A stretch of DNA of 64,000 bases, taken from the NCBI RefSeq assembly GCF_009796805.1, contig NZ_CP047029.1, forward strand, positions 2,118,501 to 2,182,500. The letters are read 5' to 3'. A program made the translations under genes and the position numbers. The notes beneath the pieces are model-generated. The model ran no database searches, was not told where the DNA came from, and saw nothing but the letters and a program-made list of their open reading frames with translations. Numbering within the stretch: position 1 is the stretch's first letter; the number at the start of each line of letters is the position of its first letter. The stretch comes from Algibacter sp. L1A34. Its GTDB lineage: Bacteria; Bacteroidota; Bacteroidia; Flavobacteriales; Flavobacteriaceae. Of the stretch, positions 62,128 to 64,000 are shown piece after piece.

Positions 62128-62829
62128 TTATTCTTTTTCAGAAGCTTTAATTTCATCAATAAACGCTTGCAATTCCTTTCCATATTTAGATGCTTTAACT
62201 TTTTCTGTTAGAGATACATTAATGGTATCCAATAAGCTTATTTTAGCGTTGTATATTTCGGTTAAAGCTAAATAAGGTGCAACTTCACTATCTTTATTAT
62301 TAAGAGCGAAATTCACAGTATACAAGTATCTTCTTTTTAAGATACTTTCAGTTTGCTTTTGGATTACTTTTAGTTTAGAAGTATCTCCAGCCATTTGTGC
62401 TTCAAACTTATCTTTTATTAAATCTAAATTTCTTCCGTTAAATTTACCAATCATGGTTTGGTAATTTTCTAATACCTTTTGCTGTTCCGATCCAATAATT
62501 TTTGCATCATAAGCAAAATTTTTAAGGGTTGCGTTTATTTCCGTAATACCTTTATCTGCAAAAAATGAAATGCCATCTTCTCGTTTACTGTTTTTGTCTA
62601 AAAACAGAAAGAAAACCTCAGGGGTTTCTAAGTTGCTATGTAATTCGAAATTTGGATTTCCACTTATAACTAAAGAGTCTACATTAACAAGAGCAGAGTC
62701 TTTTACTTTTTTAAGATAAACGGTTCCTTTTTTTAAACCTTTAATATGGCCTTTAACGGTTAAGTCGTGTTGTTCTTTTCCGCAAGAAACCATCAAACAA
62801 ACTAATAATATTACAAGTACTCTATTCAT
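62128..62829 (-). CDS. DUF4369 lipoprotein
   Basis: A 233-residue lipoprotein with a signal ending VSCG (Cys about residue 16). The N-terminal DUF4369 domain, LTVKGHIKGLKKGTVYLKKVKDSALVNVDSLVISGNPNFELHSNLETPEVFFLFLD (about 23-80), is the part usually found in front of thioredoxin-like domains of Bacteroidota; here no CxxC thioredoxin domain follows. The C-terminal half is helical. Role unknown. Confidence 0.88.
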   Translation of the reverse strand: MNRVLVILLVCLMVSCGKEQHDLTVKGHIKGLKKGTVYLKKVKDSALVNVDSLVISGNPNFELHSNLETPEVFFLFLDKNSKREDGISFFADKGITEINATLKNFAYDAKIIGSEQQKVLENYQTMIGKFNGRNLDLIKDKFEAQMAGDTSKLKVIQKQTESILKRRYLYTVNFALNNKDSEVAPYLALTEIYNAKISLLDTINVSLTEKVKASKYGKELQAFIDEIKASEKE

Positions 62830-62947
62830 AGAAAATTATGCTTTTTTTTAAGTGTTACAAATATCTCACTTTTATATTTTAAATACTAATACCCATAATT
62901 GAATTATTTACGTTAAAAAGAACTTAAAATTATCAAGCACTTAAAGT

Positions 62948-62964
62948 TTGGCACGCCGTTTGCT
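62948..62964 (+). promoter_or_regulatory. Sigma-54 promoter (-24/-12)
   Basis: TTGGCACGCCGTTTGCT matches YTGGCACG-N4-TTGCW at every position, with GG and GC exactly 10 bases apart. It is the only such site I noticed. The predicted start is near 62975. Activator sites upstream are unknown. Confidence 0.85.
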
Positions 62965-62974
62965 TTTAGAGTAA

Positions 62975-63088
62975 TAGTTATATTCTATATAAATAGTTTA
63001 TTGAGTGGTTACTTTAAACTTTAGAATTGTAACTCATATTTTGATTGGTTAGTTAGAAAAAAAGCATCCGTTTACGGGTGCTTTTTTT
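62975..63088 (+). ncRNA. Predicted sigma-54-dependent small RNA
   Basis: About 114 bases from the sigma-54 start to a strong terminator. There is no ATG-initiated frame. An internal pair (GGTTAC with GTAAC, 63007-63032) and the terminator hairpin would fold it. The boundary at the 5' end is an estimate from the promoter. Confidence 0.6.
63058..63088 (+). terminator. Terminator of the predicted sigma-54 RNA
   Basis: GCATCCG pairs with CGGGTGC (one G-T) around a TTTA loop, with a run of As before and seven Ts after. Confidence 0.85.
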
Positions 63089-63137
63089 GTTTAATACATG
63101 TAGGTGATTTTAATAGTAAGTAATAAAAAACCATGCG

Positions 63138-63207
63138 TTTCATCGATTTTATCGATTATTTAATCTTTAAGTGTTAAAATTAAGTGTATTTCATCGATTT
63201 TAAGTGT
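63138..63207. repeat. Cluster of short direct repeats upstream of the second RNA unit
   Basis: TTTCATCGATTTTA occurs at 63138-63151 and 63189-63202. TTAAGTGT occurs at 63167-63174, 63180-63187 and 63200-63207, and its inverse CACTTAA at 62938-62944 next to the sigma-54 site. These look like regulator binding sites rather than coding sequence. Confidence 0.5.
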
Positions 63208-63237
63208 GTTTAATCGTTTCGTTAAGTTTCTAAATTA

Positions 63238-63245
63238 TATATTTG
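63238..63245 (+). promoter_or_regulatory. -7 box of the second RNA unit
   Basis: TATATTTG fits TAnnTTTG; a -33 TTG is not clear (TTTC at the expected position). Transcription would start near 63251. Confidence 0.45.
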
Positions 63246-63250
63246 GAGTG

Positions 63251-63390
63251 TTCTAAATAACACACCTTTTAGTTCAATGGATTAATTAATTAGTATTTGC
63301 ATTATGTTGTTGAAATGGAATCCCAAATCTAACCTCATAATAATAACGCAAATGATAGAAAACCGAGTTTGAGGGAACTCGGTTTTTTTT
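63251..63390 (+). ncRNA. Predicted second small RNA or leader
   Basis: About 140 bases from a TATATTTG box to a strong terminator at 63359-63390. It contains a 22-codon frame (63304-63372, starting MLLKWNPKSN with three ATA Ile codons) whose stop falls in the terminator loop, so an alternative reading is a leader-peptide attenuator for the downstream dipeptidase. That gene, however, has its own promoter. Confidence 0.4.
63359..63390 (+). terminator. Terminator before the dipeptidase gene
   Basis: AAAACCGAGTT pairs with AACTCGGTTTT around a 6-base loop and is followed by a T-run. Confidence 0.85.
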
Positions 63391-63403
63391 ATGTCTAATT
63401 ATT

Positions 63404-63431
63404 TTGGGTTTCATTATTTTAGCTAACTTTG
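63404..63431 (+). promoter_or_regulatory. Promoter of the dipeptidase gene
   Basis: TTG at 63404-63406 and TAACTTTG at 63424-63431, spacing 17 bases. The box ends 5 bases before ATG 63437, so the mRNA is nearly leaderless. Confidence 0.6.
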
Positions 63432-63436
63432 CTATT

Positions 63437-64000
63437 ATGAAGTCGAAATTTCTCTATTTAGCTCTACTATTCTCTGTCTTTTCATTTGCACAATTACCTA
63501 AGGGTTTTGTTTATGTTAAAGATATAATTCCAGATTTAAATGTTGAGTTGCGCTATAATACCACCTATAATTTTGTTGGCAAGCGAGTAGATGGTTATAA
63601 ATCTAACCGTTTAATTTTAACAAAACAGGCTGCTGAAGCTCTACGTTTGGTACAAGCTGAATTAGAAGATGAAAATTTATGCCTTAAAGTATACGATGGT
63701 TATAGACCTCAACAAGGCGTAAATCACTTTATACGTTGGGCTAGGGATTTGAGCGATACTATCAATAAATCTATTTTTTATCCTAAAATTAATAAGCGAA
63801 TATTGTTTAAATCAGGCTATATTGCTACAAGATCTGGCCATAGTAGAGGAAGTACCATCGATTTAACTATTGTAGATGGTAATACTGGAGACATTTTAGA
63901 CATGGGAAGTCCGTTCGATTTTTTCGGAGAAGCATCATGGGTTAATTATCCTAATATTTCAGAAAAGCAAAAAGAAAATCGACAAATACTTCAATCGGTA
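63437..64000 (+). CDS. D-alanyl-D-alanine dipeptidase (VanX/DdpX type, M15D), 3' end outside window
   Basis: The first 188 residues of a zinc dipeptidase that hydrolyses D-Ala-D-Ala. The signal peptide is about 1-18 (FSVFSFAQ). VKDIIPDLNVELRYNTTYNFVGKRVDGY and KVYDGYRPQQGVNHF (about 95-109) match the family, and SGHSRGSTIDLTI (about 137-149) carries the zinc-binding His and Asp of the SxHxxGxxxD motif. The periplasmic form in flavobacteria is thought to serve peptidoglycan recycling rather than vancomycin resistance. The second zinc His and the catalytic Glu lie beyond the window. Confidence 0.92.
   Translation, partial: MKSKFLYLALLFSVFSFAQLPKGFVYVKDIIPDLNVELRYNTTYNFVGKRVDGYKSNRLILTKQAAEALRLVQAELEDENLCLKVYDGYRPQQGVNHFIRWARDLSDTINKSIFYPKINKRILFKSGYIATRSGHSRGSTIDLTIVDGNTGDILDMGSPFDFFGEASWVNYPNISEKQKENRQILQSV

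Follow-up and report, generated by a model that had tools for sequence, protein, structure and literature searches.

A predicted sigma-54-driven small RNA family of Flavobacteriaceae with a 3' tag that recurs at the ends of other sigma-54 genes

To our knowledge, little has been learned about small RNAs of Flavobacteriaceae or about their partners. The Qrr RNAs of Vibrio resemble the RNA described here in being driven by sigma-54 and in often being present several times per genome, but they act in quorum sensing through LuxO and Hfq and their copies are not known to lie in tandem. CpxQ is likewise an Hfq-dependent RNA. In E. coli, the cpxP mRNA is an envelope-stress transcript that encodes a periplasmic protein and yields the small RNA CpxQ from its 3' UTR (PMC4817254). 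The likeness proposed is with the tagged mRNAs described below and is one of logic: the Cpx response operates there and sigma-54 here, and stand-alone RNAs with the same tag are found here. In Bacteroidota, FopS and GibS of Bacteroides are paralogous multicopy RNAs that likewise combine a terminator with a conserved stretch left unpaired (PMC11697453). FopS is transcribed from housekeeping promoters, bears this stretch at its 5' end and has the RRM protein RbpB as its partner (PMC11697453), whereas the RNA described here has a sigma-54 promoter and a 3' tag, and RRM_1 was not found in 100 genomes. Within the same bacterial family, Table 2A of a study of F. psychrophilum includes Rfp36, a putative RNA with a sigma-54 (SM4) promoter ahead of it and a place in a co-expression cluster with genes for gliding, for a lipoprotein and for proteins without known function (PMC9723704); the likeness is one of family and promoter, drawn from the description rather than from a comparison of sequences. 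The statement of a sequence-only reading of this DNA that no member had been described in Flavobacteriaceae fails as worded, given this table entry. The name Rfp36 otherwise appeared in the searched literature only in killifish, Arabidopsis and Drosophila contexts, and a description of the present RNA was not found in a search of a collection with few subscription journals. The terms small RNA, sRNA and non-coding are absent from the main text of a 2025 survey of the sigma-54 regulon (PMC12316311). When 13 loci were compared with Rfam 15, only tRNA passed the gathering score, a further difference from FopS and Qrr; matches at permissive E-values lay far below the gathering scores and were taken for chance. 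What appears to be new, on the comparisons given below, is the recurrence of a tag with which other sigma-54 transcripts, some of them protein-coding, also end, a feature that the sequence-only reading had not noticed.

The window, meaning the whole 64,000-nucleotide stretch of DNA that was analysed, contains the RNA locus in a gap from 62830 to 63436, in line with the 600 bases assigned to it at the outset. The gap is bordered on the left by a minus-strand gene (62128-62829) and on the right by a plus-strand gene resembling a dipeptidase (named by eye) with its ATG at 63437. The sequence-only reading had pointed to a consensus sigma-54 promoter with a 10-base spacing, and this was confirmed: TTGGCACGCCGTTTGCT at 62948-62964 on the plus strand matches the -24/-12 consensus exactly, with GG at 62950-62951, GC at 62962-62963 and 10 bases between them. 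Its rarity in this DNA was borne out as well, as TGGCACGN4TTGCW was seen once against 0.005 expected per 64 kb in first-order shuffles of the window. The shorter form TGGCACN5TTGC is expected 0.075 times per 64 kb by the same procedure, and its single mismatch-free occurrence in the window is the promoter site itself. Matches with up to two mismatches show no excess over expectation (36 seen, 31 expected), and this chance level of loose matches speaks for a reading in which the promoter match arose by accident and the block consists of nothing more than a terminator between conserved flanks. Between the RNA and the dipeptidase-like gene, TTTCATCGATTTTA occurs twice in the window (63138-63202), and similar words lie 3' of the RNA in two other loci (L058 and L063).

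The predicted small RNA of about 114 nt would occupy 62975-63088 on the plus strand, if transcription starts 12 nt past the -12 element. Two helices are indicated by covariation, P1 (62976-62985 paired with 63024-63034) and P2 (AGTTTA at 62995-63000 paired with TAAACT at 63015-63020), and the alignment places the conserved loop GAGTGGTTAC at 63003-63012. The tag TTTTGATTGGTTAGTTAG at 63039-63056 is unpaired in the consensus and has TTTTGGTTGGTTAGTTAG as its commonest form in the family. It is followed by an intrinsic terminator, a hairpin with a U tract at 63057-63088, in which 99.3% of cells are paired in an alignment of 70 sequences. The terminator had also been proposed from the letters alone and was recovered by folding; a simple terminator scanner did not list it because its T run pairs inside the stem. 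The absence of a start codon between promoter and terminator held up too, as no ATG was seen by eye on the plus strand of this interval and the RNA region contains no plus-strand ORF of at least 20 aa. The fold is more stable than that of shuffled sequences (z -4.3). Judged by its alignments, the block 62976-63088 is a conserved RNA in which two helices are followed by the unpaired tag and the terminator, and its covarying helices, lack of an ORF and own terminator are those of a structured non-coding RNA. Two further candidates were rejected, namely a 7-codon TTG frame noticed by eye within the RNA, which is broken in another genome of the genus (G003), and a pseudoknot between loop GAGTGGTTAC and GTAACTC, the second side of which, judged by eye, follows the changes of helix P1 instead of those of the loop.

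The RNA block was detected in all five genomes of the genus, own genome included, the other four showing 80-87% identity. A DNA search gave matches at E <=0.001 in 111 of 299 family genomes, many of them to the terminator only. In an alignment of 33 loci that ran from the predicted start to the terminator and left the promoter out, 95.3% of cells were paired and 13 of 28 pairs had changed on both sides among 32 distinct sequences; neither value was reached in any of 500 shuffles, and the number of pair types was as high in 4 of 500. The covariance model R1, built from this alignment and free of any promoter sequence, scored at least 50 bits in 74 of the 299 family genomes (one of these matches, in G086, is doubtful because it follows the end of a 603-aa frame), and reached 191 of the 299 with a weak tail at E 0.001. 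Among the matches listed outside the family, in 296 genomes of the order, R1 did not exceed 41.4 bits; these were treated as chance, and the seven that were checked (L120, L123, L125, L128, L129, L131 and L133) had no sigma-54 site. Applied to 80 loci with promoter plus tag, R1 gave 70 matches at E 1e-6, and in the resulting alignment 92.3% of cells were paired and all 28 pairs had changed on both sides, a number reached in 0 of 500 shuffles. This alignment was fitted to R1 and favours structure; slid controls drop to 41-58% paired. A pattern scan for promoter plus tag across 84,980 species returned at least 118 stretches, and the 80 stretches listed (the lineages of two were looked up) carry names of Flavobacteriaceae genera or of bins called Flavobacteriaceae or Bacteroidia, with the exception of L250 from a horse faeces MAG, which its neighbour genes suggest to be a chance match.

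The promoter accompanies the RNA in these relatives. A TGGCA[CT]N5TTG site lies at -60 to +22 of the match start in 54 of the 58 R1 matches with at least 50 bits (50 loci), compared with 109 of 20,000 random windows of the same loci (0.5%). The four matches without it comprise a one-letter variant (L181), two members of tandem arrays (L144, L145) and one doubtful case (L169). The site becomes rarer with falling R1 score, being present in 7 of 13 matches at 45-50 bits, 2 of 8 at 40-45 bits and none of 9 below 40 bits; locus examination covered the best 88 of 110 matches, and the remaining 22 score at most 36.8 bits. Since R1 holds no promoter sequence, the conservation of the promoter may be regarded as an independent test of the RNA model. 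In six tandem arrays (L141-L146), 13 of 15 copies have a sigma-54 site of their own. A fortuitous promoter match accounts neither for a site near the start of nearly all strong matches nor for covarying helices upstream of the terminator, and provided that the alignments are correct the comparative evidence is taken to refute this reading, which leaves it very improbable. Promoter and terminator proved to be kept together across many genera in the covariance-model search of relatives that the sequence-only reading had suggested, and the refuting outcome that it had named, a lack of this joint conservation, did not occur. Its central prediction, a small RNA gene driven by RpoN, stays a prediction that is strongly supported by the jointly conserved structure, terminator and promoter and by the presence of rpoN.

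Tandem matches in the pattern scan for promoter plus tag number four in Lacinutrix algicola, four in Kordia algicida and three in Olleya sediminilitoris, and some species have two to four tandem RNA copies. At 135 RNA loci, the left neighbours are mostly minus-strand genes of about 233, 286, 421-436 or 569 aa, which by eye resemble DUF4369, SPFH and DUF819 proteins, and the right neighbours are often of 221 or about 308 aa. Neighbours vary between groups, and a constant regulatory-gene neighbour was not seen among the RNA loci. The presence of rpoN does not explain the distribution of the RNA, as 297 of the 299 family genomes have this gene.

The tag is found well beyond the RNA loci. Its exact 15-mer TTTTGGTTGGTTAGT occurs 115 times in 59 of 100 family genomes, compared with 8 occurrences of the reversed control. 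Examination covered 95 of the 115 places, the other 20 comprising 16 in RNA loci already found and 4 that were left out. A tie to a sigma-54 site was established for 64 of the 95, for 46 of them through a gene. A script assigned 32 to the 3' end of a sigma-54 gene and 20 to positions within 160 nt behind a sigma-54 site (three of the 20 also end a sigma-54 gene). It counted 10 at 3' ends with no such site in view, 9 in other places with a terminator, 2 in coding sequence and 22 in no class; these counts are rough because the terminator finder overlooked several hairpins that look real and accepted a few doubtful ones. Within the unclassed group, a sigma-54 gene precedes 10 more places and a sigma-54 site 1 more, at which the hairpins had not passed the terminator rule; together with L365, added by the gene-linkage rule, the resulting 63 places become the 64 given above. 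Unlinked frames in tag loci have a sigma-54 site in 10 of 107 cases, a background that is high because tag loci are rich in sigma-54 genes.

The genes linked to the tag belong to few families. The largest has 41 members that appear by eye to be exported proteins, and 40 of these have a sigma-54 site, which starts 25-86 nt before the start codon. A lipoprotein family (assigned by eye) has 8 members, 6 of them with a sigma-54 site, and single cases include a ClpB-like gene (by eye) with no sigma-54 site in view. In the genome studied here, the next-best tag match is no target, as it lies in the same orientation 3 nt past the stop of the L016 gene (G000:C1:4548353) and is followed by a terminator; no Pfam match was obtained for this genome's member of the exported-protein family. 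At L372 and L383, two adjacent look-alike sigma-54 genes for exported proteins are present, each with its own promoter and tag plus terminator. Short sigma-54 RNAs with the tag are also situated 3' of a UvrA-like gene (by eye) at L348 and L368. At L358 (tag at 75, minus strand), 23 nt separate the start of the sigma-54 site from the tag, and the predicted RNA would contain little beyond tag plus terminator. Because this combination ends sigma-54 mRNAs and would nearly make up the predicted L358 RNA, tag plus terminator is likely to be the functional unit.

The association with sigma-54 has limits in both directions. A sigma-54 site is not in view at 31 of the 95 tag places, 9 of which lie at gene 3' ends with a terminator, and R1 matches in one large genus (g128: L116, L124, L126 and L127) follow genes without a sigma-54 site. 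Conversely, the LysM-like gene behind an exact-consensus sigma-54 site (L015) does not have the tag, which shows that the tag is not regulon-wide. As far as these sequences indicate, the tag is a mark of a subset of the sigma-54 regulon, neither regulon-wide nor exclusive to it. A distinct class of conserved RNAs (L176, L178, L180, L117, L119, L122, L130 and L132) carries the near-identical tag TTTGGTTGGTTATTTAG without a sigma-54 site. These RNAs are located mostly before a DUF3108-like gene, and between HPPD-like and DUF3108-like genes where both are visible (by eye); their different genomic place and missing sigma-54 site led us to reject them as promoter-switched relatives. Members of this class (e.g. 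L176:2308-2431) contain a GGGTGGTTCC hairpin and a ACTTTAAGTATTGGTTTTTCATAATTTAAAGT hairpin and have GTTAAA-type words upstream. That tag and terminator are mostly found side by side, even on this distinct RNA and on mRNAs for which no sigma-54 site is in view, is what would be expected if the tag were an aid to processing or termination in cis, a 3' cassette that has spread and sets RNA 3' ends or stability with no role in trans. Such a cassette would leave the stand-alone RNAs with their conserved 5' structure, the tandem copies and the sigma-54 link unexplained, and we consider it improbable.

The genome contains one rpoN and three clear sigma-54 activators, genes whose presence the sequence-only reading had asked about. 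The activators (L073, L074 and L075) match PF00158 at E below 1e-60; the other eight of the 11 listed matches, at 20-38 bits, are probably other AAA+ proteins. Activator L073 consists of a receiver plus AAA+ domain in 387 aa, seemingly without a C-terminal DNA-binding domain (by eye), and for want of an evident domain of this kind it may be able to activate without an upstream site. Genome-wide on both strands, 154 sites with at most one mismatch were counted against 93 for the reversed pattern. Four sites are exact: the RNA promoter, L013 inside a coding frame, L015 before the LysM-like gene (named by eye) and L016, which lies 50 nt before an exported-protein gene (by eye). Of 41 tagged genes, 9 have TGAWWATCA at a distance of 23-58 nt upstream of their sigma-54 site, where 0.06 would be expected, and the word is absent from the upstream regions of 135 RNA copies. 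This speaks against one common activator and slightly lowers confidence in the main reading given below; RNA loci and tagged genes may thus be under different activators. Examples of this candidate activator site are found at L367, L379, L392, L400 and L427. Upstream of the 135 RNA copies, the leading words were TGATATCA repeats and stretches of coding sequence from one divergently oriented neighbour gene. The palindromic TGATATCA repeats, seen in 47 of the 135 upstream regions (0.5 expected from shuffles), lie in the divergent promoter beside the RNA, upstream of 286-aa SPFH-like genes (for example at L147, L148 and L167), and are probably the operator of the SPFH-like gene.

Complements of the tag were searched before start codons, and no clear enrichment was detected in 1277 upstream regions. 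Ten-letter complements were seen 9 times, a number reached by 17 of 390 shuffles, and three of the nine regions had been included for matching the tag. For the tag form found in this genome, the complement occurred twice in the 1277 regions, below the shuffle mean of 3.9, and in this genome as a whole the complement showed no excess (19 versus 16, the RNA itself counted). Perfect complements 7-11 nt before a start codon were found three times (L374, L381 and L423, the last of which requires a TTG start), which is too few for a target claim, and the target test as a whole is negative or underpowered. The lack of clear target enrichment fits a different role for the tag, as a docking site shared by RNAs and mRNA 3' ends for an RNA-binding protein (a chaperone, a stability factor or a titrated regulator). 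Such a site would also agree with a tag that is long, strongly conserved, built in 4-base steps (UUGG UUGG UUAG UUAG) and adjoining the terminator, where chaperone sites are found in other bacteria. The RRM protein of Bacteroides has no relative in view for this role, as none of 100 family genomes, this one among them, gave an RRM_1 match and the control Bacteroides did. A docking site is judged unlikely, albeit a rival to be taken seriously.

Tag plus terminator as a common unit fits a docking site and an antisense seed alike, and most pairing seeds are shorter and less invariant than this tag, which counts against a seed. The antisense seed is nevertheless favoured because the minimal RNA and the mRNA 3' ends resemble the CpxQ arrangement. 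On the sequence evidence it is somewhat probable that the RNA belongs to a flavobacterial sigma-54 stress RNA family acting in trans through its tag, with a logic like that of CpxQ. The locus would on this reading be a small RNA gene within the flavobacterial RpoN (sigma-54) regulon, at which an enhancer-binding protein would read a signal, most likely envelope or protein-folding stress. This signal is suggested by the F. psychrophilum sigma-54 regulon, in which chaperones, envelope stress functions, gliding and exported proteins are represented (PMC9723704). Sigma-54 polymerase would then produce the RNA of about 114 nt, in which two stacked helices of the 5' half precede a 3' half with the unpaired tag (common form UUUUGGUUGGUUAGUUAG) directly before the terminator. 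The same tag plus terminator stands at the ends of sigma-54 mRNAs for exported proteins, and stand-alone RNAs as well as mRNA 3' ends released by processing would pair their tag with target mRNAs in trans. Promoter, structure, tag, terminator, tandem copies and the joint occurrence with sigma-54 sites are read directly from the sequences; transcription, signal, processing, pairing and targets are steps proposed on that basis. One response would in this way deliver exported proteins and, alongside them, a post-transcriptional effect to match, in the manner of CpxP and CpxQ in E. coli.

The shared tag suggests an RNA network. We entertain, with a confidence just short of even, a branch of the regulon in which a common tag plus terminator on RNAs and on mRNAs for exported proteins supplies one RNA effector in many copies with no RRM-type chaperone. 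The sigma-54 RNA family extends over dozens of genera, and its 16-base tag offers a direct experimental handle. If the proposed role is true, stress transcription in these bacteria would be coupled to post-transcriptional control without the known RRM chaperone, and stand-alone RNAs and mRNA 3' ends would be linked as sources of one effector.
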